Below are positions 703-60,459 of a stretch of DNA of 64,000 nucleotides, in pieces. Each line of letters begins with the position of its first letter. Within the stretch, counting starts at the first letter, position 1. A program made the translations under genes and the position numbers. Source of the stretch: an uncultured Bacteroidales bacterium (GTDB lineage Bacteria; Bacteroidota; Bacteroidia; Bacteroidales; Paludibacteraceae); the NCBI GenBank assembly GCA_902798965.1, contig CADBYS010000022.1, positions 20,652 to 84,651 of the forward strand, written 5' to 3'. Under the pieces are notes generated by a model, which was not told where the DNA came from, did not search any database, and saw nothing but the letters and a program-made list of their open reading frames with translations.

Positions 703-737
703 GCGAAGCGGTCTATACTCTTTTAGCGAAGCGGTCT
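703..737 (+). repeat. Two mini-hairpin repeat units upstream of rlmN
   Basis: Two copies of GCGAAGCGGTCTAT (cores at 703-709 and 726-732) fill the 42-bp spacer between the GH13 gene and rlmN. The second copy runs into the start codon: its final CTATG supplies the ATG at 738. No Shine-Dalgarno sequence is present. The same family recurs at 990, 4450, 7358, 8785 and 60395. Confidence 0.85.
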
Positions 738-1901
738 ATGGAACCACTACTTGGTAAGACATTGGCAGAACTGCAGCAGATTGCCTGCGAGGCGGGTTTA
801 CCCCGCTTCGTGGGCAAGCAGCTCTGTGAGTGGATTTACCGCCATCGCGCTACGAGTTTTGAGCAGATGACGAACATCTCGCTCAAGGCGCGACAAGCCT
901 TGCAGGAGAAATATTGCATCGGCCGCTTGGAATCTACCGCACAAGCCGTTTCTGTCGATGGCACACGCAAGTACCTCTTCCCTGTCAATCTAACAGCGAA
1001 GCGATCTAACAGCGATAGCGATCCAACAGCGCAGCGGTCTAACAGCGACAGCGGTCGCTATATAGAGTGCGTGTATCTGCCCGAGGACGACCGCACCACG
1101 CTATGTGTGAGCACACAGGCAGGCTGTAAGATGGGTTGCCGATTCTGCATGACCGGCACCTTGGGTTTTCACGGCAATCTGTCTGCCGCTGATATACTGG
1201 CACAAATACTATACTTCCCCGACTTGACCAATCTGGTGTTAATGGGCGAAGGTGAACCAATGGACAATATCGACAATGTGCTGCGCGCGCTCAACGTACT
1301 GACCTCGGAGTGGGGCTTAGGCTGGAGCGGCAAGCGCATCACGGTTTCTACGGTGGGAGTGTTGGAAAGTCGAAAGTCGAAAGTCGAAAGTCAAAAGCAA
1401 ATAGGAGAAAACGGGAAGCCTGCCTTGCAGCGATTCCTGGAAGAGACAGATTGCCATCTGGCTATATCGCTGCACAATGCGTTCCCTGCCGAGCGCGCGG
1501 CAATCATGCCGGCAGAGCGGCTCACACCCATTCAAGAAGTGCTTGATCTGGTTCGTCAGTACGATTGGACACACCAGCGCCGCTTGTCGTTCGAATATAT
1601 ATGCTGGAGCAGCATGAACGACGATCTACCCCACGCCAAGCAACTGCTTCGGCTGCTCCGAAACCTACCCTGCCGCGTCAATCTTATCCGCTTCCATCAA
1701 ACGGATACAGCGGATGCCCATAGCGGAAAGCCCGCCTCGCTCAAAGCAGACAGACCTATATTCACAGCAAGCGACGAATCGCGCATGATTGCCTTCCGGG
1801 ATTACCTCTCGGATCATGGCATCACATGCACCATTCGTCGCTCGCGTGGCGAAGACATACTTGCCGCGTGCGGCATGTTAGTCAACGCGTTACAGAAGTA
1901 A
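738..1901 (+). CDS. rlmN: 23S rRNA (adenine-C2)-methyltransferase RlmN, with two repeat-derived insertions
   Basis: Radical-SAM enzyme that methylates C2 of A2503 in 23S rRNA (and A37 of some tRNAs in characterised homologues). The CxxxCxxC cluster motif is at Cys130/134/137 (GCKMGCRFC), the GEGEPMDN motif follows near 170, and the second catalytic Cys is near the C-terminus (AACGML). At 387 residues it is about 40 longer than usual. The excess is explained by two insertions: residues 85-106, coded by four mini-hairpin repeat units (990-1055), and about residues 208-229, which include four GAAAGTC heptamers (1365-1392). Both lie in loops between conserved blocks and keep the frame, so the enzyme is probably functional. 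It ends 1 bp before a convergent gene. Confidence 0.96.
   Translation: MEPLLGKTLAELQQIACEAGLPRFVGKQLCEWIYRHRATSFEQMTNISLKARQALQEKYCIGRLESTAQAVSVDGTRKYLFPVNLTAKRSNSDSDPTAQRSNSDSGRYIECVYLPEDDRTTLCVSTQAGCKMGCRFCMTGTLGFHGNLSAADILAQILYFPDLTNLVLMGEGEPMDNIDNVLRALNVLTSEWGLGWSGKRITVSTVGVLESRKSKVESQKQIGENGKPALQRFLEETDCHLAISLHNAFPAERAAIMPAERLTPIQEVLDLVRQYDWTHQRRLSFEYICWSSMNDDLPHAKQLLRLLRNLPCRVNLIRFHQTDTADAHSGKPASLKADRPIFTASDESRMIAFRDYLSDHGITCTIRRSRGEDILAACGMLVNALQK
990..1055 (+). repeat. Four mini-hairpin repeat units inside rlmN
   Basis: Four units of 16/17 bp (990-1005, 1006-1022, 1023-1038, 1039-1055) of the form CTAACAGC-loop-GCGGT. The cores are GC-GAA-GC, GC-GATA-GC, GC-GCA-GC and GC-GACA-GC: the two-base-pair stem is kept while the loop varies. 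The total is 66 bp, exactly 22 codons, so the reading frame survives. Confidence 0.9.
1365..1392 (+). repeat. Four GAAAGTC heptamers inside rlmN
   Basis: Four perfect tandem heptamers, followed by a degenerate AAAAGC, code for part of the second extra loop of RlmN. The same heptamer family, in either orientation, is found at gene borders across the window. Confidence 0.9.
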
Positions 1902-1902
1902 C

Positions 1903-2253
1903 TTACTTACCTAAGCCTTCCAACAATCCTTCTACTGCCCCACCCAACTCAATCAGAGCATCGTGCATTCCGTTGGCACTATCGTCCAGGGAGTGCTTGG
2001 CGAACTTAGCCTTGCAACGGCCTTTCAGCTTACCTATCTCACGCTTCTGCTCGTCGGTGTATTCGTAATTATCCAGCGTTTGGCAGATATCGGCGTAATG
2101 CAGCACGGCTTCGTCCCAATCGGCTGCTGACCAATTGTCGGACTTCTGTTCAATACGTTCGGTAAACTTCTGCAAATCATTGAAAGCAGTTTCCGAGGGG
2201 TTGCAAGCCACAAACAGGAGGCTGAGCAACAGTAATGATAAAATTTTTTTCAT
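1903..2253 (-). CDS. Small lipoprotein of unknown function
   Basis: 116 residues with a lipoprotein signal: KK, a leucine-rich core and the lipobox LFVAC near residue 17. The mature part is short, charged and helical (SDNWSAADWDEAVLHYADIC). It should be lipid-anchored in the envelope. The start codon overlaps the stop of ribF by 4 bp (ATGA), so the two are translationally coupled. No function is recognised; it resembles small Bacteroidales lipoproteins of the DUF6565 kind, but that is a guess. Confidence 0.75.
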   Translation of the reverse strand: MKKILSLLLLSLLFVACNPSETAFNDLQKFTERIEQKSDNWSAADWDEAVLHYADICQTLDNYEYTDEQKREIGKLKGRCKAKFAKHSLDDSANGMHDALIELGGAVEGLLEGLGK

Positions 2254-3146
2254 ATTCTTTGTAAATCTTTGTTTATCTGTTCACGCAATTCGTCCAGCGA
2301 GTTGAAGCGTTGTTCGCTTCGCAGCCGTTCGATGAATTGCAAGGTAAGCGTCTGGTTGTACAGATCACCGTCATATCCGGGTATATGTACCTCAATCGTC
2401 TGGTGCGTATTTCCCACTGTAGGATTCGTACCGATATTCACCAGCGCCATTTTCTCGCCTACATTGCTTTCGACTATCGACTTTTGACTTTCGACTATTA
2501 CCCTAACCTTGTACACTCCCGCCGCGGGCACAAGCTTGGCTGCATCGGGCATAATGTTTGCCGTGGGGAAACCTATCTGCCGGCCAATCATTCGTCCGTG
2601 CACTACCCTTCCGGTCAGGCTGTACTCATAGCCAAGCAGGCGATTCGCGGACTCAATATTCCCCTCGCTCAGGTAATTGCGGATGCGAGTGGATGATGGC
2701 CGCTCGCCATCCTCGCTATACGGCTCGGCGCGTAGCACACGGATGCCTACGGCTTGTGCGATCGAGGCATATTGCTCGTCGCTCATGCGGCCGTCCGAAC
2801 CGAAATGGTGGTTATAACCCATGAGCAGGTACTTCACTTTCCAGCGGTCGGAGAGGTAATCCAAGAATTGCGCGGCGGTCAGAGGTTGCACTTCCGCAAA
2901 GTCAAAGAAATGCACATCGCCGAACTGCCCGAGCAGTCGTTCGCGCTCATCGAGCGTGGTTAGCAGCGGCGGATTGAAGGCATCAGCGCCCTTCAGTTGC
3001 GCCAGCACGCTGCGCGGGTGTTGCAGAAAGGTGAAGATCAGTGCCCGCAAATCATGCTCGGCAGCGTGCATGCGCAGCTGCTCAAACAGGTATCGGTGTC
3101 CCTTGTGAACGCCGTCAAAGAATCCTATGGTTGCTATTGCGGGCAT
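2250..3146 (-). CDS. ribF: Bifunctional riboflavin kinase / FAD synthetase
   Basis: Converts riboflavin to FMN and FMN to FAD. The N-terminal nucleotidyltransferase domain shows GFFDGVHKGH (residues 8-17) and SSTRIRNYL (151-159). The C-terminal kinase domain shows GRVVHGRMIGRQIGFPTANI (about 179-198) and NIGTNPTV. Between two strands of the kinase domain (about residues 218-231) is an extra segment coded by five heptamers (2467-2501), absent from ordinary RibF. First gene of a two-gene unit with the small lipoprotein. Three 29-bp repeats lie upstream of its start. Confidence 0.95.
   Translation of the reverse strand: MPAIATIGFFDGVHKGHRYLFEQLRMHAAEHDLRALIFTFLQHPRSVLAQLKGADAFNPPLLTTLDERERLLGQFGDVHFFDFAEVQPLTAAQFLDYLSDRWKVKYLLMGYNHHFGSDGRMSDEQYASIAQAVGIRVLRAEPYSEDGERPSSTRIRNYLSEGNIESANRLLGYEYSLTGRVVHGRMIGRQIGFPTANIMPDAAKLVPAAGVYKVRVIVESQKSIVESNVGEKMALVNIGTNPTVGNTHQTIEVHIPGYDGDLYNQTLTLQFIERLRSEQRFNSLDELREQINKDLQRI
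2467..2501 (-). repeat. Five heptamers inside ribF
   Basis: Units CTTTCGA, CTATCGA, CTTTTGA, CTTTCGA and CTATTAC on the plus strand, 35 bp in all, code for the extra VESQKSIVES loop of RibF on the minus strand. Confidence 0.88.
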
Positions 3147-3180
3147 GAGAACTGTTTAGTTCACGAATTAATCGAAATAA

Positions 3181-3267
3181 TCGTTCGAGTGAAACGAGAT
3201 AAGAAATAATCGTTCGAGTGAAATGAGATAAGAAATAATCGTTCGAGTGAAACGAGATAAGAATTAA
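3181..3267. repeat. Three 29-bp tandem repeats upstream of ribF
   Basis: Three copies start at 3181, 3210 and 3239, with two or three base differences. Each contains TCGTT-CGAGTGA-AACGA, a 5-bp hairpin. The inner AGTGAAACG resembles the GTGAAAC variant of the mini-hairpin family. They lie between the acyltransferase stop and the ribF start. Confidence 0.92.
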
Positions 3268-3280
3268 ACGAATGCAGTGG

Positions 3281-4417
3281 TTATATTTTTATATAAATCT
3301 TTTTCCTGTATAGCGGGTAAGCGATGCACCACATCAGGGCATCGTAGATCAGTGCGCAGACGAGTGAGCCGCCATTCTCGCCAAACACGGGCAGCATAAT
3401 CTGCTTGTAGTAGTATCCCCATACGGAATAGGTCTCGCCGCCTACATCAAAACGGATATTCGCCATAATGATGGCTAATAGTCCGCTCAGCACGAAGATA
3501 AACAGCGGGTTGACGCCAAAGCTCTCGAACGGCATCAGCCACTCGCCCTTATGGCAAACATCGATGATCCAGATGAGCAAGGCCAGCAACAACGATGCCA
3601 AGCCGCAGGTAAGCAACACGTACGATGCACTCCACAGGCTCTTGTTGATCGGGAAGGCATAATCCAACAGGAAGCCGGCAAGCAGAATGATTGTGCCCAT
3701 GATAAACAGGCGGATTACCACCAGCCTCAGGTCGTTGGTCGTGAAGATCAGTTTGCCGGCATAGCAGCCTAACAGACAGTGAGCGATACACGGTATAGTG
3801 GATAATATGCCCTCGGGGTCAAAAGCTATGCCGCCCAGGTGATACATATGTTGCTCGCCTAATATGGCGCGATCCACGCGCGAGATGATATTCTGCTCCG
3901 TAAGGTCGAAACTGCCGGAGATGCCGATGATCAGGCAGTAAGCAAACAGCAGACCTAATGCTATCTGCGGCAGGTACTTTGCTTTGCTGAGCATCAGCAG
4001 GAAACCTGCAAACAGACTCACCCACCCTAACCGGGGCAACACGCCCATGTAACGCAGCTTGGCTATCGGGTTGTTCCACAGCGCGTCAATCCACTCGCCT
4101 CCGCTGCTCAGCGTGCGGCAACAGATACCAAACCAGCCCATCGCCCAGCCGATCAGTACAATCAGCAGCGAGCGGTAGATAAGGTGACCGATAGTCTTGC
4201 AGGTCATGGCAAAGCCGCGCTTGCGCTGCGATATATACATCGCTACGCCCATCACGAACATAAAGAACGGGAAAACAAGGTCGGTTGGCGTGCAACCGTT
4301 CCATGCTGCATGACGCAAGGGCGCATAGATATGCGCCCAAGTGCCGGGGTTGTTCACGAGAATCATTCCCGCGATGGTTATACCCCTCAATACGTCTAAG
4401 CTGCGAAGCCTACTCAT
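3281..4417 (-). CDS. HGSNAT-like membrane acyltransferase (DUF5009 type)
   Basis: Multi-spanning membrane protein of about 378 residues, roughly ten hydrophobic segments. The N-terminus LRSLDVLRGITIAGMILVNNPG and the following PTDLVFPFFMFVMGVAMYIS are hallmarks of the heparan-alpha-glucosaminide N-acetyltransferase-like family, which moves acetyl groups from cytoplasmic acetyl-CoA onto sugars across the membrane. The start was placed at MSRLRSLD (4417) because codons upstream of it come from intergenic repeat DNA. The substrate is not known. It lies downstream of infB and may be cotranscribed with it. Confidence 0.82.
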   Translation of the reverse strand: MSRLRSLDVLRGITIAGMILVNNPGTWAHIYAPLRHAAWNGCTPTDLVFPFFMFVMGVAMYISQRKRGFAMTCKTIGHLIYRSLLIVLIGWAMGWFGICCRTLSSGGEWIDALWNNPIAKLRYMGVLPRLGWVSLFAGFLLMLSKAKYLPQIALGLLFAYCLIIGISGSFDLTEQNIISRVDRAILGEQHMYHLGGIAFDPEGILSTIPCIAHCLLGCYAGKLIFTTNDLRLVVIRLFIMGTIILLAGFLLDYAFPINKSLWSASYVLLTCGLASLLLALLIWIIDVCHKGEWLMPFESFGVNPLFIFVLSGLLAIIMANIRFDVGGETYSVWGYYYKQIMLPVFGENGGSLVCALIYDALMWCIAYPLYRKKIYIKI

Positions 4418-4462
4418 AGTCGAAAGCCTAATTAGTCTTTTGTCTTTGAGCAAAGCGGTCTA
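4418..4462 (-). repeat. Composite heptamer plus mini-hairpin spacer after infB
   Basis: Read on the minus strand, the infB stop codon TAG is the beginning of TAGACCGCTTTGCTC, a mini-hairpin unit (core GC-TTT-GC). It is followed by AAAGACAAAAGAC heptamers running up to the next start codon. The spacer holds nothing else. Confidence 0.82.
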
Positions 4463-7252: not shown

Positions 7253-7283
7253 CTTGCTATTTCTTTTTTTTTCTTTGATTTAT

Positions 7284-7403
7284 AGACCGTTCACTCCGTT
7301 CACTAAAGGAGTAAGGATTAAAGACTTATATGTATCAGACGAGTGTAATTCGTCTTTACTCTTTCAGTGAAACGGTCTTTACTCCTTCAGCGAAGCGGTC
7401 TTA
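7284..7403 (-). repeat. Mini-hairpin repeat block between nusA and infB
   Basis: The 148-bp spacer is almost entirely repeat DNA. Two 23-bp units (7358-7380 with core GT-GAA-AC, 7381-7403 with core GC-GAA-GC) end at the nusA stop. An inverted unit (TAGACCGTTCACT) is near 7285. A variant with the 6-bp hairpin AGACGA...TCGTCT is at 7337-7355. The nusA stop codon TAA is part of the last unit. Confidence 0.82.
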
Positions 7404-8666: not shown

Positions 8667-8700
8667 TGTATATTGTTGTTATTATATTCTTAGAAGAAAG

Positions 8701-8824
8701 ACCGATCGTTTCACTCACTCAAAGTCGAAAGTCGAAAGCCTAATCACCTTTCCAAACGCTAATACATTATAGGCTTTTGTCTTTGAGCGCAGCGGTCTTT
8801 TGTCTTTGAGGCGTAGCCGGTCTA
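8701..8824 (-). repeat. Composite heptamer and mini-hairpin block between rimP and nusA
   Basis: Contains AAAGTCG heptamers (8721-8734) and two copies of the composite CTTTTGTCTTTGAG followed by a mini-hairpin core (GC-GCA-GC, then GGC-GTA-GCC). The last unit ends in GGTCTA, and that CTA is the rimP stop codon read on the minus strand. No other signal is visible in the 155-bp spacer. Confidence 0.82.
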
Positions 8825-11063: not shown

Positions 11064-12236
11064 TTACGGTAACAACATCGCTATAGCCACGCCCAGATAC
11101 GTACCTATGGCGTAACCCACAAGTCCGATGGCGATACCCGAGATGAGCACTTTCTTGTTTTTCATCGCACCTACTACAGGCGGCACGAACGGAGGCGAGC
11201 AGAGCAGCGCTATCTGACTCACGCAGAACAGATCGCCGCTCACATGCATGATCCGGCACAGCAGCAAGTGCAAACCGGCTGCAACGATCATCACCCACCC
11301 TACGAACAGACCGATCATCAGCGAGCCGCCGTTCACGCTGTGTATATCGAACAGCGAAGCCACGATTACTGAGAAGATAAGGATAAAGAACATACCCAGT
11401 TCAAACGTCTTCGGCAGCTCGCGTACCTTCTTAAAGAACGAGGCGATGATTGATAGTGTGGTGATCGTCAGGATCACTACCAGTTCGTTGAGCGTTCCCG
11501 TAAGCAGCAGCGCCAAGCCGGCACCGATAGCAAGGAACAGCACACTCAGTCCCAGACCGATAAACATACCGCCTACGTTATGACGCGTAAACATGCCTTG
11601 GTAGTTCTCAATATCCTTGGTCTCGACATCGGCATCCTTGCGTCCCTTCCGCGTTATATCTTCGTATGGCAGAATCTTGCGGAACACCTTGTATCCGCCG
11701 CCGATGATAAAGAAGATATACGGCGTAGTAAGCACCATCTCAAACGCCAGGACGATAGCCATCACCGTCTTATCCACTCCAAGCGAAGCGCCCAAGGCGT
11801 TGAAGTTCATCGTGCCGCCGGTGTAGATACCTGTCATCATCGCGGCTACCTTGTTGAAATCCGGCACATCCGGCGTGCGGAAAATGAAGTACCCGCTTAT
11901 CACAGCGGCCAACACGGCTCCCAAACCGCCTACCAGCGACCATATGGTCTTAGGCAAAGCTTTGGTCCATAACTTAAAATCGCAGTTGAACAGCATCAGC
12001 GGGATAGCCAACGGCACAGTCACCGACATCAGAAGCGACTGAATCTTACTGAACGATACTGCCTCAGCAGTACCTGCATCGAAATGTACGAAACCAGTCA
12101 GCGCGAACAGGATTCCCACGGCATAGGCGGCAACCACCGTGCCGATCTTTTTCATCCATGTCCATCGCTTGAAGCACTCGATAATCACCACCGGAATCAG
12201 TACATACAATGCGATTACAATATATACTCGTATCAT
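11064..12236 (-). CDS. DUF819 family membrane protein
   Basis: 390 residues, about 11 hydrophobic segments. Conserved-looking blocks include TGIYTGGTMNFNALGASLGVDKT (about 152-174) and the closing PVVGAMKNKKVLISGIAIGLVGYAIGTYLG, typical of the YjcL/DUF819 family of predicted inner-membrane carriers. Substrate unknown. Encoded upstream of the Omp85-like gene with a 10-bp spacing. Confidence 0.82.
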   Translation of the reverse strand: MIRVYIVIALYVLIPVVIIECFKRWTWMKKIGTVVAAYAVGILFALTGFVHFDAGTAEAVSFSKIQSLLMSVTVPLAIPLMLFNCDFKLWTKALPKTIWSLVGGLGAVLAAVISGYFIFRTPDVPDFNKVAAMMTGIYTGGTMNFNALGASLGVDKTVMAIVLAFEMVLTTPYIFFIIGGGYKVFRKILPYEDITRKGRKDADVETKDIENYQGMFTRHNVGGMFIGLGLSVLFLAIGAGLALLLTGTLNELVVILTITTLSIIASFFKKVRELPKTFELGMFFILIFSVIVASLFDIHSVNGGSLMIGLFVGWVMIVAAGLHLLLCRIMHVSGDLFCVSQIALLCSPPFVPPVVGAMKNKKVLISGIAIGLVGYAIGTYLGVAIAMLLP

Positions 12237-12269
12237 TGAACTATATAACAGTTAATTATTTACCAGTTT

Positions 12270-12301
12270 AACAACTTAACAATTTAACAACTTAACGTTT
12301 T
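12270..12301. repeat. AACAAYTT octamer array at the plsC-like gene end
   Basis: Four 8-bp units (AACAACTT, AACAATTT, AACAACTT, AACGTTTT) span the stop codon of the acyltransferase gene. The same octamer, on the other strand, bridges two genes at 59608-59647. Confidence 0.82.
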
Positions 12302-13281
12302 AACGAACGAAGTTGATACACATATTCCTGCACAAACATCCAGAAAGGCAGCGGTATAAGCAGTGTGAGAGTCAGGAACAGCAGCTGCCACACATATTGC
12401 ACGGAGTTATGGAACGCCGGGTCGCTAACCTTATGCTCAATCACCAGCCGCATACCCCATAGCGGGATAGTAACAACCGCGCTCACCGCAAACAGCGGCA
12501 GGAGCAGTATAAGCAAGGGCACAACCACCCATCGCGGCAGGTATTTCTTGGGCGGCAGCAGCTTGGCTATGTTCTCTTCATAGTGCTCGTCGTCGGGTAC
12601 CCACACAATCAGTTGCCGCATTCGTACGGTCAGCTCCTCGCGTAGCGCCAGGATCATCTGCGGATACGTGACCTCGGGATGCTCCATGCTGTACGCTTTA
12701 ACGAACGCCGTAACGTTGATCGGCTCGCCGATGTTCACCGTCAGACTGTCCCACATACGGAAATAATCGCCGTACTCCAACCCCACCGGCACGATATACA
12801 CCGGTTTCTCTGCCCCGAACGCATCGTTCGCCTGCAGCGCTATGCGGAATATGCCCTTCCTGAGCGGCAGCAACGAGTGCATAGGTCGGTGCGTGCCTTC
12901 CGGCAATATGCAAAAAGGCACACCGTCGTGCAAAGTATCCACGGCTTTGTTGATCGTCTCGTCGTTGTGCCTCACCTCGTCCAAGCCGTCGCGCACACGA
13001 TTGATAGGCATGATCTTCAGCCAGTTCAGAATCTTCGCCCTCTTCGGGTCTTTGAAGATATCAGCCCGTGCCACGAACACTTTCTGCCGCCGGTCTATGC
13101 CTAAAATCGCCATCGCGTCGCACAGAGCGTTCGTGTGGTTAGGCGCAAAAATAATTGCCCCGTCGGTCGGGATGTTCTCCTTACCTACGTACCGAAAATT
13201 TCGGTACGAACGCCGGAAAATCCAATCGACGTACGGCCGCAGAAATAAATACAACCTATCGTTGTCCTGTATCTTACTCAC
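12292..13281 (-). CDS. 1-acyl-sn-glycerol-3-phosphate acyltransferase family protein
   Basis: PlsC-type enzyme expected to acylate lysophosphatidate at the inner membrane. The catalytic NHTNALCD motif (NHx4D) is at about residues 48-55. The substrate-binding PEGTHRP motif is near 124. Two hydrophobic segments lie at the C-terminus (VVVPLLILLLPLFAVSAVV and VWQLLFLTLTLLIPLPFW). At 329 residues it is longer than basic PlsC because of this C-terminal membrane region. A clear promoter lies 33 bp upstream. Confidence 0.88.
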   Translation of the reverse strand: MSKIQDNDRLYLFLRPYVDWIFRRSYRNFRYVGKENIPTDGAIIFAPNHTNALCDAMAILGIDRRQKVFVARADIFKDPKRAKILNWLKIMPINRVRDGLDEVRHNDETINKAVDTLHDGVPFCILPEGTHRPMHSLLPLRKGIFRIALQANDAFGAEKPVYIVPVGLEYGDYFRMWDSLTVNIGEPINVTAFVKAYSMEHPEVTYPQMILALREELTVRMRQLIVWVPDDEHYEENIAKLLPPKKYLPRWVVVPLLILLLPLFAVSAVVTIPLWGMRLVIEHKVSDPAFHNSVQYVWQLLFLTLTLLIPLPFWMFVQEYVYQLRSLKR

Positions 13282-13313
13282 TTTATCCTCTACATTTTTG
13301 TCGGAAAGTCCTA

Positions 13314-13345
13314 CAAAGGTACAAATTTTTTACGGAATTTGCAAA
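13314..13345 (-). promoter_or_regulatory. Promoter of the acyltransferase gene
   Basis: Minus strand: -33 box TTTG (13342-13345), 20-bp spacer, -7 box TACCTTTG (13314-13321). Near-perfect Bacteroidota promoter. Confidence 0.85.
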
Positions 13346-13417
13346 TTTTTCGTTCATTTTTTACAAAAAAATGCATATTTTGCTCAAATTGTACAAATCT
13401 GTAAGCAAAATATGCCC

Positions 13418-13438
13418 CTTTCACTTTTCATCTTTCAC
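13418..13438. repeat. Three heptamers upstream of the acyltransferase promoter
   Basis: CTTTCAC, TTTTCAT, CTTTCAC in tandem: the GAAARKN heptamer family in reverse orientation. Confidence 0.65.
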
Positions 13439-13456
13439 TTTTTCCCATTCCCAAAA

Positions 13457-13499
13457 GTGTGAACCTCAATCGGGGTCAAGTCCTGGTTTTGTCCTGCTC
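13457..13499 (-). repeat. 11-bp repeat array, copy 1
   Basis: Read on the minus strand: GAGCAGGACAA, AACCAGGACTT, GACCCCGATTG, then AGGTTCACACTTTT. The units and the terminal TTCACACTTTT match the arrays at 24538 and, with one base change, 43703. It lies in a gene-free 330-bp stretch (13282-13610), with heptamers before it and a 13-bp inverted repeat after it. Confidence 0.8.
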
Positions 13500-13540
13500 A
13501 AATCGTAACCATCCACTGCAGTGCAGGTCGGGATATAAAA

Positions 13541-13574
13541 TTAGGGCTGTAACCGGTTGGAGTTACAGCCCTAA
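13541..13574. terminator. Perfect 13-bp inverted repeat
   Basis: TTAGGGCTGTAAC (13541-13553), 8-nt loop, GTTACAGCCCTAA (13562-13574). There is no long T-run on either side, so it could be a weak bidirectional terminator or the relic of a mobile-element end beside the IS66-type orphan. Confidence 0.55.
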
Positions 13575-13610
13575 CTGTGTGTAGTCGTTTGATTTATTGT
13601 TGCGTGGCAC

Positions 13611-13835
13611 CTATACAAAAATATCTTTGTCATTTTCTGTTTTGCTTTTTAGATATGGCATTTTGGCGATGACATCATTCAGGTACAAGCCCTCGCTCGA
13701 TGGAGATGAGAGAAAACGATGTTTCCAAAAATAGAAAGTCGATAACGCAATCGAATGCGCTTCGCAGTAAGCTTTAATGCTTAAGCCGGAAGATTGCTGC
13801 TCGTGCAACAATTCTAAAAATTGATCTATTTCCAT
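13611..13835 (-). CDS. IS66-type TnpA-like small protein, orphan
   Basis: 74 residues from MEIDQFLELL (13835). The sequence LSIKAYCEAHSIALSTFYFWKHRF is the helix-turn-helix signature of the small TnpA/OrfA proteins of IS66 elements. The other IS66 genes (tnpB, the DDE transposase tnpC) are absent on both sides, and no IS ends are evident. It is therefore an isolated remnant or a domesticated DNA-binding protein. A -7-like box TATCTTTG lies at 13867-13874. It marks the start of the accessory island. Confidence 0.65.
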   Translation of the reverse strand: MEIDQFLELLHEQQSSGLSIKAYCEAHSIALSTFYFWKHRFLSSPSSEGLYLNDVIAKMPYLKSKTENDKDIFV

Positions 13836-13866
13836 AATCACATACTTTAGAAATCTAAATTTTCTG

Positions 13867-13874
13867 CAAAGATA
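13867..13874 (-). promoter_or_regulatory. Weak promoter (-7 box only) for the TnpA-like gene
   Basis: TATCTTTG on the minus strand, with no good -33 TTTG at the usual 20-bp distance. Confidence 0.4.
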
Positions 13875-13921
13875 CAAAAAAACTTTGACTCCTACAATAT
13901 GTACTCCAATGGATGCTTACG

Positions 13922-13972
13922 TGCCTCCGCTCTCCCCAAAATAAGCACAACATAGCTTGTGTTGGGGACTCC
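13922..13972. repeat. Dispersed hairpin element, copy A
   Basis: TGCCTCCGCTCTCCCC followed by a two-step hairpin (CCCCAA / TTGGGG outside, CACAA / TTGTG inside) and GGGGACTCC. A second copy with the same 16-nt head and a different hairpin is at 52652. Confidence 0.65.
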
Positions 13973-14002
13973 TTATTTGATTTGGGCGCAATTAACAAAG
14001 AA

Positions 14003-14054
14003 AGAATTACGCATAACGAGCAGTTCAAATGAGTCACTCGTTATGCGTAATTCT
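14003..14054. repeat. Perfect 18-bp inverted repeat
   Basis: Left arm 14003-14020 (AGAATTACGCATAACGAG), 16-nt loop, right arm 14037-14054. It lies directly downstream (minus strand) of the small membrane-protein gene and could end its transcript, though there is no T-run. Confidence 0.7.
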
Positions 14055-14061
14055 AAATAGA

Positions 14062-14325
14062 TCAAGCGTAAAAATCCTGCTCAATCGTTTTCCAATAATA
14101 TGATTGCTCATCAACATCAATGAAAAAATCTTCAGGTATATCGTCAAGCATCAATCTTAAACAATGGATTGTTTCTTGGGCTTCGATTAATTGTTCTTCC
14201 TGATTAACTGATGCATTTGTCTCGTCATTATAGTTATCGATGAGTTGTAAGATCCCAACAAAACATGCCAGCGCAAGCAGCGAACCGATAAAGCTGATAA
14301 GCAAATGCTGTAATGAAGTTTTCAT
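14062..14325 (-). CDS. Small single-span membrane protein, unknown
   Basis: 87 residues from MKTSLQHLL (14325); an upstream in-frame start at 14373 would add 16 residues. One N-terminal hydrophobic segment (LLISFIGSLLALACFVGIL, about 7-25) is followed by a very acidic soluble tail (EEQLIEAQETIHCLRLMLDDIPEDFF). Unrecognised. It has its own upstream element resembling the operator block of the neighbouring operons (14400-14424), so it may belong to the same response. Confidence 0.55.
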   Translation of the reverse strand: MKTSLQHLLISFIGSLLALACFVGILQLIDNYNDETNASVNQEEQLIEAQETIHCLRLMLDDIPEDFFIDVDEQSYYWKTIEQDFYA

Positions 14326-14399
14326 TGTTGTAGAATTTAAAAAGTTAGTATTAGCAGCTATTTTACTCTTCATACAATAAAACTTTTTGTTTCACGACG

Positions 14400-14424
14400 C
14401 ATATGTACTGCTTAGTGTGCAAGT
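14400..14424 (-). promoter_or_regulatory. Partial copy of the island promoter/operator block
   Basis: GTACTGCTTAGTGTGCAAG resembles the conserved block at 17809 and 20105 (GTACTGCTT.GTTGTGCAAC) but has only the left operator half. The -7 box on the minus strand is TACATATG (14400-14407), a weak match. It lies upstream of the small membrane protein gene. Confidence 0.5.
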
Positions 14425-14448
14425 ATAGCGCATATAGTTTCTTAATAC

Positions 14449-15432
14449 TTACACGTCTACTGAAAGCAAACGATTTATAGCATCTCCATAGTGAGGGTTC
14501 TTCCGCGCAATTCGCTCGGCGTCACTTATAAAGTTTGAATACGAACCATATGCAGCATCAGAATTGCTCTGAAGAAATGGATATTTCATATGTATAGTTG
14601 TGGACTTAGACGACTCTGTTCTAAAACCTCTTTTATCCTTTCTTAACAAATCGAAACCGCCCTCACTTCCTATCCATAGATTATTCGTAATAATCGCCCT
14701 ATCATGAAAATCTAAGGGGTAACTCTTATAAATAGTCAAACTAAATGGCAAATCTGGTCGTATCTGTTGAATTTTATCTATAATTAGTTTGCGTTCATTA
14801 GCTAAATCTATTCCCGGTTTTTCTTGCATAAACAACGAAATCTGGAAAGGGGCTGAAACTGGTAACTTTGTAGGCAACAATGCGTCTAAGATCATGTAGA
14901 GATTAAATTCTTTACCATTATCAAGATAATTGTCAAAGGCCATCAACGCGTTGCAACTATGTTTGGCATCTTTTAATATTTTTTCCCAAGACTGCGGTGA
15001 GTTTTTTTCTATGGATTTTCCAAAATCTGTAAATAATGATATATTGTTGATGGAAGAAGGAGTGAGTGCCATAACACCATTGTTAGATGCAATATCCTCA
15101 CCAGCCACAACAAAGTATATAGCATTCAACGAAGTCTGACCAATATCCTCAAGAGATGTATAAGAATCACATGTCATTTTTGCATATCCCTCCGTTAAAT
15201 CGGCACATCTCACCATGTTCTGGAAAATTTCATTATCTTCCAACAACTGACGAAATTTTTGTTTATCATCGTAATGGATGGTAACGTATTCTTGCGAAAA
15301 AACGTCTTTGATTATTTTACGAGCACACTCTCCTTCTGCCCAATTATCGTCCAGAGGAGAGTATGCTTTGCTTAAACGTTCAAAGAGAACTCGTAAGAAA
15401 TCTATTTCGCAATATATGATTTTATGTCTCAT
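14449..15432 (-). CDS. Putative effector with an HDR motif, partner of the AAA ATPase
   Basis: 327 residues, no signal peptide or membrane segment. No family is recognised over the N-terminal 200 residues. The C-terminal part contains FHDRAIITNNLWIGSEGGFDL (His243-Asp244-Arg245). An HDR motif followed by a short strand and a glycine turn is seen in PLD-like folds such as the MIT-domain C-terminal region, so a PLD-like phosphodiesterase or nuclease is a possible but unproven reading. The start overlaps the ATPase stop by 4 bp (ATGA), giving strict coupling, as in ATPase-plus-effector defence pairs. AT-rich compared with the core genes. Confidence 0.55.
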   Translation of the reverse strand: MRHKIIYCEIDFLRVLFERLSKAYSPLDDNWAEGECARKIIKDVFSQEYVTIHYDDKQKFRQLLEDNEIFQNMVRCADLTEGYAKMTCDSYTSLEDIGQTSLNAIYFVVAGEDIASNNGVMALTPSSINNISLFTDFGKSIEKNSPQSWEKILKDAKHSCNALMAFDNYLDNGKEFNLYMILDALLPTKLPVSAPFQISLFMQEKPGIDLANERKLIIDKIQQIRPDLPFSLTIYKSYPLDFHDRAIITNNLWIGSEGGFDLLRKDKRGFRTESSKSTTIHMKYPFLQSNSDAAYGSYSNFISDAERIARKNPHYGDAINRLLSVDV

Positions 15433-17774
15433 AGCAAATCCAACATTAAATTACCTGCTACATCACAGAAACCTTTGCCAAACCTCTTTGCAAACTTTCC
15501 ATTCGTTTGGTACTCCATGTCATAGGGTTTACCTGTTCCGGCTTCTGGCAAGTAGTAAACTTTGAATGGACATTTATCCGCAAGTTCTTGTTCATCATTG
15601 TACTTCGCTTCTGCAACAAGTACTTGACTGCAGCGAATGAGGTATTCTGAATGGGTCTCAAGAATAAAATTGACAGGATACTCTTCTGTTGCCATCTTGA
15701 ACACATCCGCCAATCGAGATTGAACTGCTGGGTGCAAATTTGTTTCGGGCTCTTCAATACAGATTGTGGTGCGAGTGAAATAGTCATCATAACAATCTTC
15801 TAGCATGTCTTCAAAAGCCGAAGTATGTTTGATTTCCTTATTTCGGTTCAAACTTGTCTTAATTGCGATTTCTATTTGCAACAACATAGATAGTAAAGGA
15901 GTATTGCCATATCCCATATCCGCCAGAAGTATCTCTCGCTGTTTGCCATTGACAGTTTTAAGCACTTTAATGTATATTCCAACACTCTCCGGGTCAGACT
16001 CAAACTTAACATCATCAATATCTAAAAGCATTTTCAGACTTTGCTTGAGGAAGGTTCCTTTTAAATAATTGTAATCCTTCTTTGTGTTGATGTCAATTAC
16101 AGATCCATCAAATTCTTCTAGAAATGAAGATCTGTCATCATAATCACGCACCACTCCGTGTTCGACTATTTGTTTCCCGTCGTCAAGTCGTAAATATTGG
16201 AACAAGACCTTGCTCAAACTGCCATTGTCATCAAATGTATATAAGCGTTTTGCATTGGCTCGAATACCACTAATATATTCTGTGTTAGATAGGAAGTCAG
16301 AACAAGTGAATATTTCTTGAAGAATAGACTCATAATACGACTCGATATATTTCAAATCAGCTTCTATCTGTTTTTCGTCTTTACCTAAAGAAGGATACCA
16401 CCAATTTAACAAAAGATTATTAACTAAAATAAATTTTGTTGTTGGAGCCTTTTGATGCGCATAAGAAGCATTATAAAATTCACGCAAAGAATCCTCTGAT
16501 ATATGATTTAATATATCGCCGTAGCCCAATCTATCAGACAGCCCTACTTTCTTGAGTTCGGAATAGATACTATCCCGATGTTCATCTTTAAGTGCACTCA
16601 CCCTTTCTTCTTGAGGAGCGCCATTAAATGCAGTCTCCAATGCATCTCTAACGTTATTGACTCTATATGCCTCAAGGAACTCTGCAAAGGTAAAGATGTA
16701 TCTACTTCTTATCCAATCTAAATGAAGTGCCTCAAAATAATCGACACGTCCATTTTCGAAATAGTTATCTTCAAGATGTTTGTAGTATTGCGAAAAAGAC
16801 GAATATGGTGACAATATATAATCATCTACCATTTCTTGTAAGTCTTGAAGAAGTGTGTCGCGGTAGTCGGATAATAGGTAGCCTTCTATAGTCAACATGC
16901 TATTAATGCGCTCATATAGAAATTGATAGATTTCTTCTTTTTTAAGTGCATCAAGGGTCTTGATTATATCAAGATTATAGATAATCCCAGTTTCGACAAA
17001 TGCTGGTGATTCTGTGCATTTGCCTACATTTTTAATAAAGTTATTTAATGCTATCAGATTACTATCAGCTACCTCTGTTTGCATCTCTGATTCTTCAAAT
17101 GTTTTTATTGAAGGAGGGACACACTGACTAAGAAGGTTTTTATCTATTGCATTTATTTTTCTTGCACTTTTAGCATATTTTATCAGTATTGGCAATACTT
17201 TATCATAGCCTCCGATTTTATAAACTGTAGAGTATTGACTTTCAAATTTAATAGATTTAGCACTATTATATAGTGTTTGCCATTCCTTGACGCGCTGAAT
17301 AATATCATCTTTTATATAACTATAATCCATTCTTGCTCCGACAGCGGCAGAATGTTTTGAATTTGGGCGATCACAATGGAATAGCATTTCGCCATTCTCT
17401 GCAAATATTTCAAGAAGAACGATTGTCGCTTCGTATGGTTTTTGTTTATCTTCATTTCTAAAAACTATCTTCACTTTTAGATTTGAGTGAAGGGGCAATA
17501 GATATGATTGATAAGAAAACTCCACAGTTATCTCATTTTCTTCTGACTCCCAATTGGTAATTTTGTCGAATCGACCTAATTCGTGTTCTCCTTTTGAAAG
17601 ATCAACTATATTATCCGCGAGCCAGTGAACATTTTTCAGCATTTGCAAAGACTTGCTGACAGAACTTTTTCCCGAACCATTTGGACCGGTTAGAATAGTA
17701 ATGGGTGCAAGTTCAAATGTGGAACCTTCTTTGTCAAATACCCTAAAGTTTTTAAGCGTATATTTTGTATTCAT
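15429..17774 (-). CDS. AAA/ABC-type ATPase, DUF3696-like
   Basis: 781 residues. Walker A GPNGSGKSS at 30-38. Near the C-terminus are the Walker B CIEEPETNLHP (672-682) and the switch motif FILETHSEYL (704-713), an arrangement shared by the AAA_15/DUF3696 and OLD-like SMC-related ATPases. About 600 divergent residues between the two halves would include the coiled-coil arm. No TOPRIM domain is seen. Such ATPases act as sensors or switches in several anti-phage systems (for example PARIS, Septu, Gabija), each paired with an effector; here the partner is the coupled HDR protein. Promoter with operator block 35 bp upstream. Confidence 0.78.
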   Translation of the reverse strand: MNTKYTLKNFRVFDKEGSTFELAPITILTGPNGSGKSSVSKSLQMLKNVHWLADNIVDLSKGEHELGRFDKITNWESEENEITVEFSYQSYLLPLHSNLKVKIVFRNEDKQKPYEATIVLLEIFAENGEMLFHCDRPNSKHSAAVGARMDYSYIKDDIIQRVKEWQTLYNSAKSIKFESQYSTVYKIGGYDKVLPILIKYAKSARKINAIDKNLLSQCVPPSIKTFEESEMQTEVADSNLIALNNFIKNVGKCTESPAFVETGIIYNLDIIKTLDALKKEEIYQFLYERINSMLTIEGYLLSDYRDTLLQDLQEMVDDYILSPYSSFSQYYKHLEDNYFENGRVDYFEALHLDWIRSRYIFTFAEFLEAYRVNNVRDALETAFNGAPQEERVSALKDEHRDSIYSELKKVGLSDRLGYGDILNHISEDSLREFYNASYAHQKAPTTKFILVNNLLLNWWYPSLGKDEKQIEADLKYIESYYESILQEIFTCSDFLSNTEYISGIRANAKRLYTFDDNGSLSKVLFQYLRLDDGKQIVEHGVVRDYDDRSSFLEEFDGSVIDINTKKDYNYLKGTFLKQSLKMLLDIDDVKFESDPESVGIYIKVLKTVNGKQREILLADMGYGNTPLLSMLLQIEIAIKTSLNRNKEIKHTSAFEDMLEDCYDDYFTRTTICIEEPETNLHPAVQSRLADVFKMATEEYPVNFILETHSEYLIRCSQVLVAEAKYNDEQELADKCPFKVYYLPEAGTGKPYDMEYQTNGKFAKRFGKGFCDVAGNLMLDLL

Positions 17775-17808
17775 ACGTATTGTGATTTATCATTTTTATT
17801 TTTCTGAT

Positions 17809-17847
17809 GCAAAAGTACTGCTTTGTTGTGCAACCTATTTGCACAAG
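17809..17847 (-). promoter_or_regulatory. Promoter/operator block of the ATPase operon
   Basis: Minus strand: -7 box TACTTTTG (17810-17817), directly preceded by TTGTGCAA-n5-TTGCACAA (17826-17846), a perfect 8-bp inverted repeat where the -33 box should be. No TTTG is found at the standard distance, so an activator or a blocking repressor is likely. The 39-bp block is repeated at 20105-20143 with only 2 mismatches. Confidence 0.75.
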
Positions 17848-17849
17848 CT

Positions 17850-56288: not shown

Positions 56289-56328
56289 TGATTTGACATT
56301 TTGTTAGCAAATTGTACGAATTTCGATA

Positions 56329-56360: not shown

Positions 56361-56376
56361 TTTTTTTGTAACTTTG
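56345..56376 (+). promoter_or_regulatory. Promoter of the O-methyltransferase gene
   Basis: -33 TTTG (56345-56348), 20-bp spacer, -7 TAACTTTG (56369-56376). Overlaps the Lrp promoter on the other strand, so both compete for RNA polymerase. Confidence 0.85.
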
Positions 56377-56467
56377 CGTACATTTTGTTACAAAAAGTAC
56401 AATTTTGCAATAAAAACCCGAATTTTGGGTGCTTTTGGTTGAACTATTTCATTTTTTTGCTACATCT

Positions 56468-57124: not shown

Positions 57125-57135
57125 TTTAATTAACT

Positions 57136-58641: not shown

Positions 58642-58690
58642 GTTAGTTCAATATATTAGTGTTTGATTTTCGCTACACAAAAACGGACTA

Positions 58691-58722
58691 CAAAGTTACG
58701 AAAAATTTTTGATATATGCAAG
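58691..58722 (-). promoter_or_regulatory. Promoter of the DASS transporter gene
   Basis: Minus strand: -7 TAACTTTG (58691-58698), 20-bp spacer, -33-like CTTG (58719-58722). Confidence 0.72.
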
Positions 58723-58790
58723 GATTATGGAACAATTGTTCAGAAATTTTGCATTTTTTCCCGAAAAGTTGCAAATACAATAATAAATTA

Positions 58791-58822
58791 TTTGCAAATT
58801 TGCTAAAAAATTTGTACCTTTG
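58791..58822 (+). promoter_or_regulatory. Promoter of the VTC operon
   Basis: -33 TTTG (58791-58794), 20-bp spacer, -7 TACCTTTG (58815-58822). Short leader of about 10-12 nt to the start codon at 58839. Confidence 0.87.
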
Positions 58823-58838
58823 TGGCGGATTTTGAAAT

Positions 58839-59621
58839 ATGCAGAGCATAGCAACCATACTACAGTCCTTTGAGCCGATCAGTCTGGCACAGATGGAGAG
58901 CGTGAGACTCATGAACCGTATCGACACCAAATACGCGGTGCCGATGGCTGTTCTGCCGCATATATTGGAGTCTGCCAAGGCGGACTACTTCGTGCAAGAG
59001 ATCGACGGCAAGCGCATCGCCACCTACGACACGATGTACTACGATACCGACTCGCTGGATATGTACGTTCGCCATCACGACCGCCAACTCGTCAGGCAGA
59101 AGATACGCGTGCGGCAATATGTGGATAGCAACCTCACCTTCCTGGAGATCAAGCGCAAGAACAACAAAGGCCGTACGAGCAAGAAACGAATCACGGTGCC
59201 GGGCTTTGACATCACAGCCGAGACCTTAGGCGAAAGCAAACGTTCGACATGGAGCGTGGCGGATTATATTGCGGCGAAAAGCCGGTATCAATGGGCTGAA
59301 CTGAGTCCGCACCTGTGGACGAAGTTCCACCGCATCACACTGGTGAACAAAGCCAAGACCGAACGACTGACCATTGATATGGATCTGGTATGGGACAATG
59401 TGGTGAGCGGCGAGAAAAAGACCTTCAGCGAGCTCGTCATCATCGAGCTTAAGCGCGACGGCAATGTGCCTTCCCGCATGACGCATATCATGCTCGACCA
59501 TCGCATTCATCCCCTCAAAATCAGCAAGTACTGCATCGGCACGGCGCTGACTACTCCCGGAGTGAAGATGAATCGGTTCAAACCGAAGATTCGAAAGATA
59601 GAGAAAATGTTAAATTGTTAA
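58839..59621 (+). CDS. VTC-domain polyphosphate polymerase-like protein
   Basis: 260 residues of the CYTH/triphosphate tunnel fold: RLMNRIDTKYAVP (23-35), YDTMYYDTDSLDMY (about 63-76), RQKIRVRQYVDSNLTFLEIKRKNNKGRTSKKR (basic tunnel residues) and LVIIELKRDG. In yeast this domain (Vtc4) makes polyphosphate from ATP; bacterial versions are assumed to do the same. First gene of a four-gene operon. Its last codons and stop lie in an octamer array. Confidence 0.88.
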   Translation: MQSIATILQSFEPISLAQMESVRLMNRIDTKYAVPMAVLPHILESAKADYFVQEIDGKRIATYDTMYYDTDSLDMYVRHHDRQLVRQKIRVRQYVDSNLTFLEIKRKNNKGRTSKKRITVPGFDITAETLGESKRSTWSVADYIAAKSRYQWAELSPHLWTKFHRITLVNKAKTERLTIDMDLVWDNVVSGEKKTFSELVIIELKRDGNVPSRMTHIMLDHRIHPLKISKYCIGTALTTPGVKMNRFKPKIRKIEKMLNC

Positions 59622-59647
59622 GCTGTTAAATTGTTAAACTGTTATGA
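59608..59647. repeat. Octamer array bridging the VTC and DUF4956 genes
   Basis: TGTTAAAT, TGTTAAGC, TGTTAAAT, TGTTAAAC, TGTTATGA: the reverse complement of the AACAAYTT array at 12270. It encodes the last VTC codons (LNC-stop) and contains the next start codon. Confidence 0.88.
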
Positions 59648-60396
59648 TACAAGTTGATTTAGCCAACCCTACGTTGGAGTTCCTTGAGAACGATCCCGAC
59701 ATCGCTGCACGTTTCGGTACCAGCGACAGTATCTCCTACCTGATGCACTCGATCGCCGAAGGTCTCGGTGTGAGCGCCGAGTTGATCACTATGCCGTTGA
59801 TGTTCCTGTTCAACCTGCTGGTGTCGTGGGCACTGATCTATGGCATCTACTACCGCTACAGCCGTCGCCGCGACTACTATGTGCAGTTTATGCTCTTCTC
59901 CAGCGGTATGTTCCTGCTACTGTGGCTGATGCAGATACTGGATATCCAGACAGGCTTCGTGCTTGGTCTGTTCGCCATCTTCGGAATGATACGTTACCGC
60001 ACGGAAACGGTGCCTATTCGCGAGATGAACTATATGTTCCTCATCATCGCCCTGTCGGTTATCAACTCGCTTAGCCTCAAAGCCGACGGTTTGGCATGGT
60101 ATTTGTTACTCTTTGCCAATATACTGATGTTGGCTCTGGCTTGGGGATTTGAGCTGTGGAACGGACGCAAACGCATCTCCACCAAGATCATCCTATACGA
60201 GAAGATCGAGAACATCAAGCCCGAGAACCGTGCAGCGCTGATCGCCGACCTGGAGGAACGCACAGGACTGAAGGTACTCGACATCGAGATAGGGCATATC
60301 GACTTCCTTCGCGATGTAGCCTACATCAAGATGACCTACCCGCTGGAGGCAGGGAAGATCAACAATAGTATTGACCAAATAACGAAATTCAAATAG
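59644..60396 (+). CDS. DUF4956 membrane protein
   Basis: 250 residues: four to five membrane segments (about 45-65, 80-105, 125-140, 148-165) followed by a cytoplasmic domain (ISTKIILYEKIENIKPENRAALIADLEERTGLKVLDIEIGHIDFLRDVAYIKMTYP). Matches DUF4956, a family regularly encoded beside VTC-type polymerases and probably their membrane partner. The stop codon TAG is part of the mini-hairpin repeat that begins at 60394. Confidence 0.88.
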   Translation: MIQVDLANPTLEFLENDPDIAARFGTSDSISYLMHSIAEGLGVSAELITMPLMFLFNLLVSWALIYGIYYRYSRRRDYYVQFMLFSSGMFLLLWLMQILDIQTGFVLGLFAIFGMIRYRTETVPIREMNYMFLIIALSVINSLSLKADGLAWYLLLFANILMLALAWGFELWNGRKRISTKIILYEKIENIKPENRAALIADLEERTGLKVLDIEIGHIDFLRDVAYIKMTYPLEAGKINNSIDQITKFK

Positions 60397-60459
60397 ACCG
60401 CTATGCTGATAGACCGTTTCACTGATAGACCGCTGGCGCTGACAGACCGTTTCACTGAC
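60394..60459 (+). repeat. Four mini-hairpin units across the DUF4956 / DUF2490 gene junction
   Basis: Units of 16/17 bp (60395-60410, 60411-60426, 60427-60443, 60444-60459), AGACCGC-loop-GCTGAT type, with cores GC-TAT-GC, GT-TTC-AC, GC-TGGC-GC, GT-TTC-AC. They provide the stop of one gene and the start plus first 19 codons of the next. Confidence 0.9.

Follow-up and report, generated by a model that had tools for sequence, protein, structure and literature searches.

The window analysed here, 64,000 nucleotides of an uncultured bacterium of the Paludibacteraceae (G000:C22:20652-84651, in a host genome, G000, of 2.85 Mb in 51 contigs), carries a dispersed family of very short repeats in which an AGACC tag stands at the foot of a mini-hairpin whose letters vary while its pairing is nearly always kept. 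Read on the tag strand, a unit consists of AGACC, a mini-hairpin of 7 or 8 nucleotides, a T and three variable bases (NNN), after which the next AGACC begins; on the opposite strand the hairpins read mostly GC-GNA-GC, GC-GNNA-GC or GT-GAA-AC and are followed by GGTCT. Tentatively, we favor the reading that the family is non-autonomous mobile DNA akin to repetitive extragenic palindromic (REP) sequences and their hairpin-forming doublets (REPINs), recognized through tag and shape and subject to local slippage, because the tag at the foot of a variable hairpin, the inverted composites, the position at stop codons and the patchy spread resemble REP/REPIN.

Across the whole genome, the pattern AGACCGNTN{1,2}CNCT, in which the second stem pair is left free, occurs at 134 places (73+61), compared with 6 (1+5) for the reversed pattern. 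The wider pattern AGACCGYN{3,5}RCT has 98+88 matches versus 25+28 for its reversal, and a negative control with one extra base shows no excess (24+21 versus 22+28 reversed). The first-pass annotation of this DNA had described a dispersed repeat in both orientations and proposed a genomic count; the motif is present at every place that it named (units at 703, 726, 996, 1012, 1029, 1045, 4450, 7367, 7390, 8787 and 8810, and four units in 60395-60455), units are dispersed on both strands, often as inverted pairs, and the genomic excess is clear. Several of the core variants that it listed are the same motif seen from the opposite strand: GT-TTC-AC equals GT-GAA-AC, GC-TGGC-GC equals GC-GCCA-GC, and GC-TAT-GC equals GC-ATA-GC.

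The pairing of the stem was examined at the free position of the pattern, where 92 of 100 listed places (out of the 134) form a pair (C-G 73, T-A 17, G-C 1, A-T 1), the remainder being one T-G wobble and seven unpaired. Two slot tests, both anchored on the family's own flanks, gave the same picture. For one, sites were the sequences between AAGA[CT]C and T[CGA]AAAGA, chosen blind to hairpin content; a flush stem of 2 bp or more is present in 59 of 63 own-genome slots and in 60 of 73 slots from the 80 listed loci described below, where about 1/16 is expected by chance, and some of the failures (4/63 and 13/73) are two units taken as one slot. For the other, slots lay between identical triplets (NNN-AGA[CT]C-X-T-NNN-AGA), and the right halves were shuffled 5,000 times; both stem positions pair in 145 of 149 slots, which share descent and hence are not independent events, versus a shuffled mean of 85 and a maximum of 102. 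All 18 own-genome slots and 127 of the 131 others pair; T-G occurs in three and C-A in one of the 131, too few cases to give the direction of wobble intermediates and so to tell RNA from DNA. Stems found within one flank include GC/GC, GT/AC, AC/GT, GGC/GCC, GTCCC/GGGAC, GCACG/CGTGC, GGCGC/GCGCC and GCAGCCAT/ATGGCTGC; most are 2-3 bp long and a minority 4-8 bp, the longer ones being unrelated letters in the same slot. The constraint on pairing is strong, and the earlier statement that the variants always keep the ability to pair is nearly true but not strictly so: a half-changed stem, AC-TGAC-GC, occurs in the relative G001, and four nested 15-mers have a broken pair (GCGAGTGAAACGAAC, GTGATCGAAGCAAAC, GTGAACGTAGAGAAC and GTGAGTGAAACGATC). 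The joint change of GC/GC to GT/AC is likewise seen, but because several of the claimed variants are opposite-strand readings, the window alone holds one change of a 2-bp stem; its other stem variation is a GGC/GCC stem and the nested form.

Among 7-base slots, the loop is T.C in 126 of 137, which is GNA on the complementary strand (GAA 69, GCA 35, GTA 17, GGA 5), and among 8-base slots it is T..C in 10 of 12, or GNNA; tetraloops that are frequent in the genome include GTTA, GACA and GCCA, none of them GNRA. Hairpins of 15 bases are often GT-GA-[7-base hairpin]-GA-AC, and the GA/GA step in this nested form would be a tandem sheared G-A mismatch. In PMC6479982, which cites Yoshizawa 1997 for this, DNA minihairpins with GNA loops are described as extraordinarily stable, and passages of the same source place the GAA loop 6 degrees above GTA in stability; the mini-hairpin suggested by the first-pass annotation therefore belongs, for most loops, to the class named in those passages.

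The family is spread patchily. AGACCGYTN{1,2}CRCT is found 0-219 times in 37 genomes of the genus, and 24 genomes from other families of the order hold 0-2 copies, like the control. The tandem pattern has no match in 394 other genomes sampled from the phylum of the window (only 5 of its order). A scan of a genome collection, for which AGACC and GC/GT-type stems were required, returned at least 117 stretches, 80 of them listed; among the matches listed, most named records belong to Paludibacteraceae or other Bacteroidales and many of them come from the rumen, and the host itself is probably a rumen bacterium. Also among the matches listed, the tandem pattern is present in Flavobacterium, Kordia, Saprospiraceae, Verrucomicrobia, Akkermansiaceae and Lentisphaera. 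Twelve genomes outside the genus were followed with a copy count set against a control: Flavobacterium lotistagni (40 versus 4), Flavobacterium UBA7665 (52 versus 2), a third Flavobacterium (7 versus 2), Kordia (19 versus 1), a Flavobacteriales metagenome-assembled genome (MAG; 4 versus 1), two genomes of Saprospiraceae (60 versus 15 and 56 versus 7), Verrucomicrobia (30 versus 3), Akkermansiaceae (19 versus 7), Lentisphaera (16 versus 1) and a Bacteroidia MAG (41 versus 15). The twelfth, a Streptomycetaceae MAG, was rejected as a carrier (4+2 versus 3+0, taken as noise).

Some of the following counts come from a 444 kb sample that was chosen partly for dense matches, and its densities are not genome averages. 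Units follow one another in tandem with periods of 16-17 and 23-24 bp, the longer period being, as read from the sequence, one additional 7-bp unit (NNNAGAN), and they keep the register of 7-bp repeats. More arrays of the sample have period 7 than any other, namely 93 of the 333 found by TRF, genic ones included (period 9, 46; period 10, 31; period 8, 28; period 6, 8). In adjacent units, NNN is identical in 65 of 120 pairs (14.6 expected) and the whole hairpin in 34 (17.5 expected); the stem type is the same in 52 pairs versus 56 expected, and is thus independent, which gives no support to an avoidance of identical stems in neighboring units. Growth by local slippage is suggested by the 7-bp register and by spacers that are shared although the stems vary independently.

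These properties also suit a structural microsatellite with no dedicated enzyme, a purely replicative origin that is the main rival to mobile DNA. Slippage in 7-bp steps would lengthen the arrays, template switching at the replication fork (quasi-palindrome correction) would perfect the hairpins, GNA and GNNA would win by best folding, and the spread between loci would be gene conversion between similar arrays. The predominance of period 7 and the independence of neighboring stem types beside shared spacers agree with this, as do perfect stems that differ in sequence and reach 8 bp and the different heptad types at orthologous sites: the same protein linker has hairpin units in one relative and plain GAAAGTC-type heptads in the other, in two orthologous pairs (L122:1050-1230 versus L203, and L298:8040-8210 versus L075). 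Intergenic heptamer arrays are moreover known in other bacteria, according to passages of PMC4679880 and PMC4692102. However, the AGACC tag, the periods of 16 and 23 and the right end GGTCTTTCTTCTAA recur in a Flavobacterium, in a scan that itself searched for AGACC, and a process blind to sequence predicts none of these; composites of Flavobacterium UBA7665 have this right end in common with window 8691. The 394 genomes of the phylum sample without a tandem match also speak against a general replicative process, and we regard such an origin as possible, though on balance unlikely.

Turnover was followed at the nusA locus, for which 34 of the 37 genomes searched had a match and 30 loci were fetched. 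G000, G001 and G007 each carry a strict unit, different in all three, which is absent from the other 27 of 30 loci, among which the upstream context of G019 is unreadable and G024 has a different tandem repeat; NusA of G007 is 97% identical to that of G000. At its rimP|nusA site, G001 has AC-TGC-GT beside the half-changed stem. In the nusA|infB gap of G001 (L295:9500-9620) there are other inverted heptad arrays (GTTGAGN ... CTAAACA), where G000 has an AGACC composite, and in the same gap of G003, G026, G006, G002 and G015 (L275, L280, L285, L287 and L291) a different small hairpin, ACGC-CGNNN-GCGT, whose loop varies, stands directly before the infB start.

Composites are made of two arms in inverted order, and some arrays have a single arm only. 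In a survey of composite ends, 56 distinct first units were scanned and 15 composites with a defined right end were obtained, which measure 66-133 bp from the first AGACC to that end; the minimal size once attributed to the element is therefore true of the unit, whereas composites reach about 130 bp. T precedes the first AGACC in 12 of the 15, the base before TAG in those 12 being A or T and never G, and A follows the final CTA in 13. Composites at different loci are 84-87% alike over 82-129 bp, and copies have therefore moved or been converted. Window 7306-7387, for instance, resembles L062:1930-2011 (87% over 83) and L075:964-1045 (85% over 82), and the composite at 8691..8824 resembles L065:2418-2544 (85% over 129) and L066:11320-11428 (84% over 111). 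On a paper reading of several composites, uncounted, pairing of AGACC with GGTCT and of TCAAAG with CTTTGA would bring the hairpins flush.

Placement was assessed with greedy open reading frame (ORF) calls, some of which are false. In the own-genome sample, 26 of 42 clusters lie outside ORFs and 16 inside, some of the inside calls being false. The TAG of TAGACC is a stop codon (offset -2) in 10 of the 26 extragenic clusters and in 9 of 75 clusters outside ORFs at loci of other genomes; TAG makes up 58 of 323 stops in the sample. Two of the 26 show a TAA|GACC stop and six have no nearby same-strand gene end. Composites often span from the stop codon towards the next start. Arrays also run in frame within rlmN and ftsY, and heptad runs in frame within rlmN and ribF; the PDB alignment is ambiguous at the stretch within rlmN, and an ftsY orthologue without units was seen (L139).

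The same placement would suit an RNA element, that is, transcript structures after the stop or before the start that are terminator-like, stabilize mRNA or space translation, with selection on RNA keeping the pairing. Composites lie between the co-directional genes rimP, nusA and infB and have a U-rich run behind a palindrome, the first AGACC often makes the stop codon, and RNA folding gives z of -1.2 to -4.4. DNA folding, however, gives z of the same size (-1.6 to -3.8), so that RNA and DNA are inseparable; units occur in both orientations and also within coding sequence, the frequent tetraloops are not GNRA, and a scan of the window against Rfam 15 at the gathering score returned two tRNAs only and no known RNA family. 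Because 27 of 30 relatives lack a strict unit at the nusA locus, no function is needed there, and we consider an RNA element improbable. Still less probable is a miniature inverted-repeat element that targets TA, either in a TAA stop or in TATG, and duplicates it on insertion, turning the stop into TAG, presumably through a transposase of the IS630/Tc1-mariner-like family: its ends would read TAG/CTA, as the bases at composite ends suggest, and of the 25 rimP stops that could be read by eye in relatives lacking units, 17 are TAA (TAG 4, TGA 4), but no clean empty site was found, the shared terminal inverted repeat is short, and single-arm arrays are without a second end.

Under the favored reading as REP/REPIN-like mobile DNA, units and plain NNNAGAN 7-bp units stack in tandem, opposed arms form composites, and composites have reached many positions between genes as well as some linkers within proteins. 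The hairpin would act as single-stranded DNA, on the lagging or nascent strand, and would be recognized by tag and shape, as HUH/Y1 transposases use a guide sequence at the hairpin foot; an enzyme acting in trans would spread the copies, replication slippage would lengthen and shorten arrays locally in 7-bp steps, and selection may retain arrays at stop codons and flexible linkers. A bolder version, which we think rather unlikely, has one dedicated enzyme that reads AGACC plus any flush hairpin, places it in the 7-bp register and has carried the element patchily between Bacteroidota and the Verrucomicrobia-Lentisphaera group; we propose that the flush hairpins read in this way would include mini-hairpins with GNA or GNNA loops and nested forms in which G-A mismatches stand in tandem. 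In this version, the four-way pairing that composites allow on paper would make the element a genomic Holliday-junction mimic, of which minimum-energy folds show at most a part.

Candidate mobilizers were sought among genes like those of REP-associated tyrosine transposases (RAYTs). The RAYT-like genes of the genome encode 344-418 aa with PDHLH-type and tyrosine motifs, and their proteins match PF01797 weakly and NF047646 below the cut-off. Searches were made with Pfam PF01797, by tblastn with an own RAYT-like protein over 61 genomes, and with a profile, A1, built from eight such proteins; 27 distinct RAYT-like loci of the genus were read (8 + 20, one common; about 2-5 kb each, with about 1-2 kb either side). 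Loose matches stand about 1 kb from a RAYT-like gene (AGACC-GT-CCC-AC-T in L233, AGACC-GT-TCGT-AC-T in L248), and in L230 AGACC occurs only as the center of a long palindrome that has GTAG close to its end and of which three copies lie around and inside the gene. Over the 37 genus genomes, copies correlate with RAYT-like matches, which are alignment pieces and not genes (Spearman 0.57, p = 2e-4); with genome size the correlations are 0.61 for RAYT-like matches and 0.36 for copies. PF01797 has matches in 7 of 11 carriers outside the genus and none in four (three Flavobacterium and one Flavobacteriales MAG), in which A1 likewise finds no match.

RAYT-like loci showed further features of their own. 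L230 (G080) holds a second RAYT-like type (332 aa), and its palindrome, nearly perfect over 41 bp, has one copy in frame within the gene. The RAYT-like gene at L061:1249-2283 (G000:C1) is bordered on either side by a hairpin repeat of its own, present each time as three copies in tandem (e.g. AAGACTCGGCAT-CGAAA-ATGCCGAGCACAGAACACC), where AGAC also stands at the hairpin foot; the C-terminal part of its protein has no Pfam match. Private long hairpins, several of them repeated within one locus, are frequent in L245-L264, and the proteins of L245, L247, L250 and L251 contain repeated inserts that separate the HUH motif from the Tyr motif.

Several observations weigh against mobile DNA of the REP/REPIN kind. 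The link to a REP-associated transposase that the first-pass annotation had suggested was not found, in that RAYT-like genes are present but none of the 27 loci holds a strict AGACC mini-hairpin unit. G004 has 79 copies and no RAYT-like match by PF01797, tblastn or A1, and no RAYT was found by PF01797 or A1 in F. lotistagni and Flavobacterium UBA7665. Both models have blind spots, however: PF01797 misses G024, where tblastn finds 11 pieces, and A1 misses G091, where PF01797 is strong. Because both are partly blind, RAYTs may still help to spread the repeat, perhaps without being necessary for it. The mobilizing enzyme was not found by these RAYT-directed searches. As to an autonomous copy between convergent arrays, four pairs lie 1.6-5.7 kb apart among about 90 of the 134 places, and in one such interval, partly read by eye, no transposase was recognized. 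The proposed comparison of insertion sites between close strains yielded no clean empty site, the best flanks (G001 and G007) being about 85-89% at the nucleotide level. The tandem pattern has 0 exact matches in viral contigs, by which a phage origin was also rejected. For five composite strands, the calculated folding exceeds that of shuffled sequences only to a moderate degree (z -1.2 to -4.4), and their minimum-energy folds form few mini-hairpins, flush four-way pairing being at most partial. The shared descent of the 149 slots belongs here as well, and independent stems within one array agree with a fast local re-making of hairpins no less than with insertion.

The features of the window are collected in Table 1.

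Table 1. Arrays, composites and heptad runs in the 64,000-nucleotide window
Position	Strand	Feature	Source
689..739	-	Two-unit array, hairpins GCGAAGC at 703-709 and 726-732, period 23	TRF 689-739
988..1055	-	Four-unit array in rlmN, about 66 bp, period 16-17, frame kept (residues NLTAKRSNSDSDPTAQRSNSDSG)	
1365..1398	+	Heptad run (GAAAGTC)n in rlmN, without hairpin, frame kept (LESRKSKVESQKQ)	
2467..2498	+	Heptad-like run (CTTTCGAC, CTTTTGA, CTTTCGA) in ribF, frame kept (VESQKSIVESN)	
4417..4462	-	Composite, gap infB / NagX-like gene	
7283..7403	-	Composite, gap nusA / infB, central inverted arms	
8691..8824	-	Composite, gap rimP / nusA	
60394..60460	+	Four-unit array GC-TAT-GC, GT-TTC-AC, GC-TGGC-GC, GT-TTC-AC, period 16-17	
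60474..60503	+	Heptad run TTTGTGC, TCTGTAC, TCTGTAT, TCTGTAT, directly after the 60394 array	read from sequence

The first array adjoins the 5' end of rlmN, and its GGTCTA end overlaps the ATG at 738; the hairpins of the array within the gene are GC-GAA-GC, GC-GATA-GC, GC-GCA-GC and GC-GACA-GC, and the GAAAGTC heptad was found again elsewhere in the 444 kb sample. The name rlmN rests on NCBIfam TIGR00048 (274 bits, below the cut-off of 290) and on PDB matches to RlmN. The composite after infB runs from the TAG stop (4462-4460) through ACC, GC-TTT-GC, TCAAAGACAAAAGAC and TAATTAGGCTTTCGACTA to the ATG of the NagX-like gene, which is named only by a match far under the cut-off (130 of 480 bits). 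Two units, GC-TTC-GC and GT-TTC-AC, follow the stop of nusA (TAA|GACC), and at 7289-7303 the opposite strand carries a nested 15-nt hairpin, GT-GA-AC-GGA-GT-GA-AC. The composite after rimP reads TAG stop (8824-8822), ACC, GGC-TAC-GCC ... GC-TGC-GC ... and an inverted arm ending in GGTCTTTCTTCTA, with a 15-nt hairpin with one broken pair at 8704-8718. The first TAG of the array at 60394..60460 is the stop codon of ORF 59644-60396, which has no NCBIfam match; in the NCBIfam scan of ten window proteins, two were without a family and some names fell below the curated cut-off.

Three further observations concern the window. At 3165-3265 there are three tandem copies of a repeat of about 29 bp (TCGTTCGAGTGAAACGAGATAAGAAATAA) that contains GT-GAA-AC, which there precedes GAGATAA in place of GGTCTA. 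The NagX-like gene (3281-4417) lies between ribF and infB in G000, where in G001 and G007 infB is directly followed by ribF. G+C is 42% and 35% within 12001-20000 versus about 50% elsewhere, and this is perhaps an acquired segment.

If the favored reading is true, the family is a natural DNA repeat that separates shape from sequence, with more than 100 copies and many short hairpins in a defined flank, and would serve as a natural data set on short DNA hairpins that the cell tolerates or an enzyme recognizes. The enzyme would be findable through the gene content of carriers and non-carriers within one genus, given the range of copy number over its 37 genomes, and a link would be possible between REP-like elements and intergenic heptamer arrays, which have been noticed for a long time as a peculiarity of bacterial genomes. 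For annotation, a warning follows that the repeat itself makes up some of the stop codons and protein linkers of these genomes.

Compared with known systems, the family is closest to REP/REPIN. It shares short tagged palindromes in high copy that are mostly extragenic, their inverted dimers, a stretch between that keeps hairpin capacity with compensatory changes, a TAG of the repeat that serves as a stop codon and some copies inside ORFs; for REP, compensatory stem changes, dimers, TAG stops and copies in ORFs appear in passages of PMC3733652, PMC3116915 and PMC6006769. The foot of the stem, however, is GTAG or CGTC there and AGACC here, and stems of 5-13 bp, mostly 6-9 (passages of PMC3733652), contrast with mostly 2-3 bp here. 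The GNA/GNNA loops, the many unrelated stems per flank and the 7-bp phased tandem arrays are further differences, and there the cognate RAYT is flanked by the repeat, whereas no strict unit stands at the 27 RAYT-like loci here. The earlier label of a REP-type element therefore holds for the dispersed, high-copy palindrome, mostly outside ORFs, with inverted pairs and a pairing constraint, but not for tag, stem and RAYT link. In the titles and opening abstracts of open-licence full texts in PMC, among the matches listed, the family is not described, which leaves its absence from print unproven; there and in the passages cited here, AGACC as a tag, GNA hairpins with a 2-bp stem, so wide a range of stems per slot and the 7-bp register are likewise undescribed.

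Rickettsia palindromic elements (RPEs) are also palindromic repeats, with a different tag. They insert in frame into protein genes, and their size and organization probably differ from those of the AGACC family. In passages of PMC3733652, RPE-4 and RPE-6 are classed as CGTC repeats. Intergenic heptamer repeats, such as GGGAATC of Xanthomonas, TAACTGA of Beggiatoaceae and the long simple sequence repeats, resemble the family, according to passages of PMC4679880 and PMC4692102, in that units of 7 bp stand in tandem in the gaps between genes, often close to a start codon, and in a distribution that is patchy across distant phyla or differs among close relatives; there, however, one plain heptamer is repeated, whereas here the sequence varies by locus and hairpin modules stand in phase. 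With the d(GCGAAGC) DNA minihairpins, finally, the family has the GNA loop class in common, on the GNA strand; what is a property of an oligonucleotide there is here a genomic repeat family.

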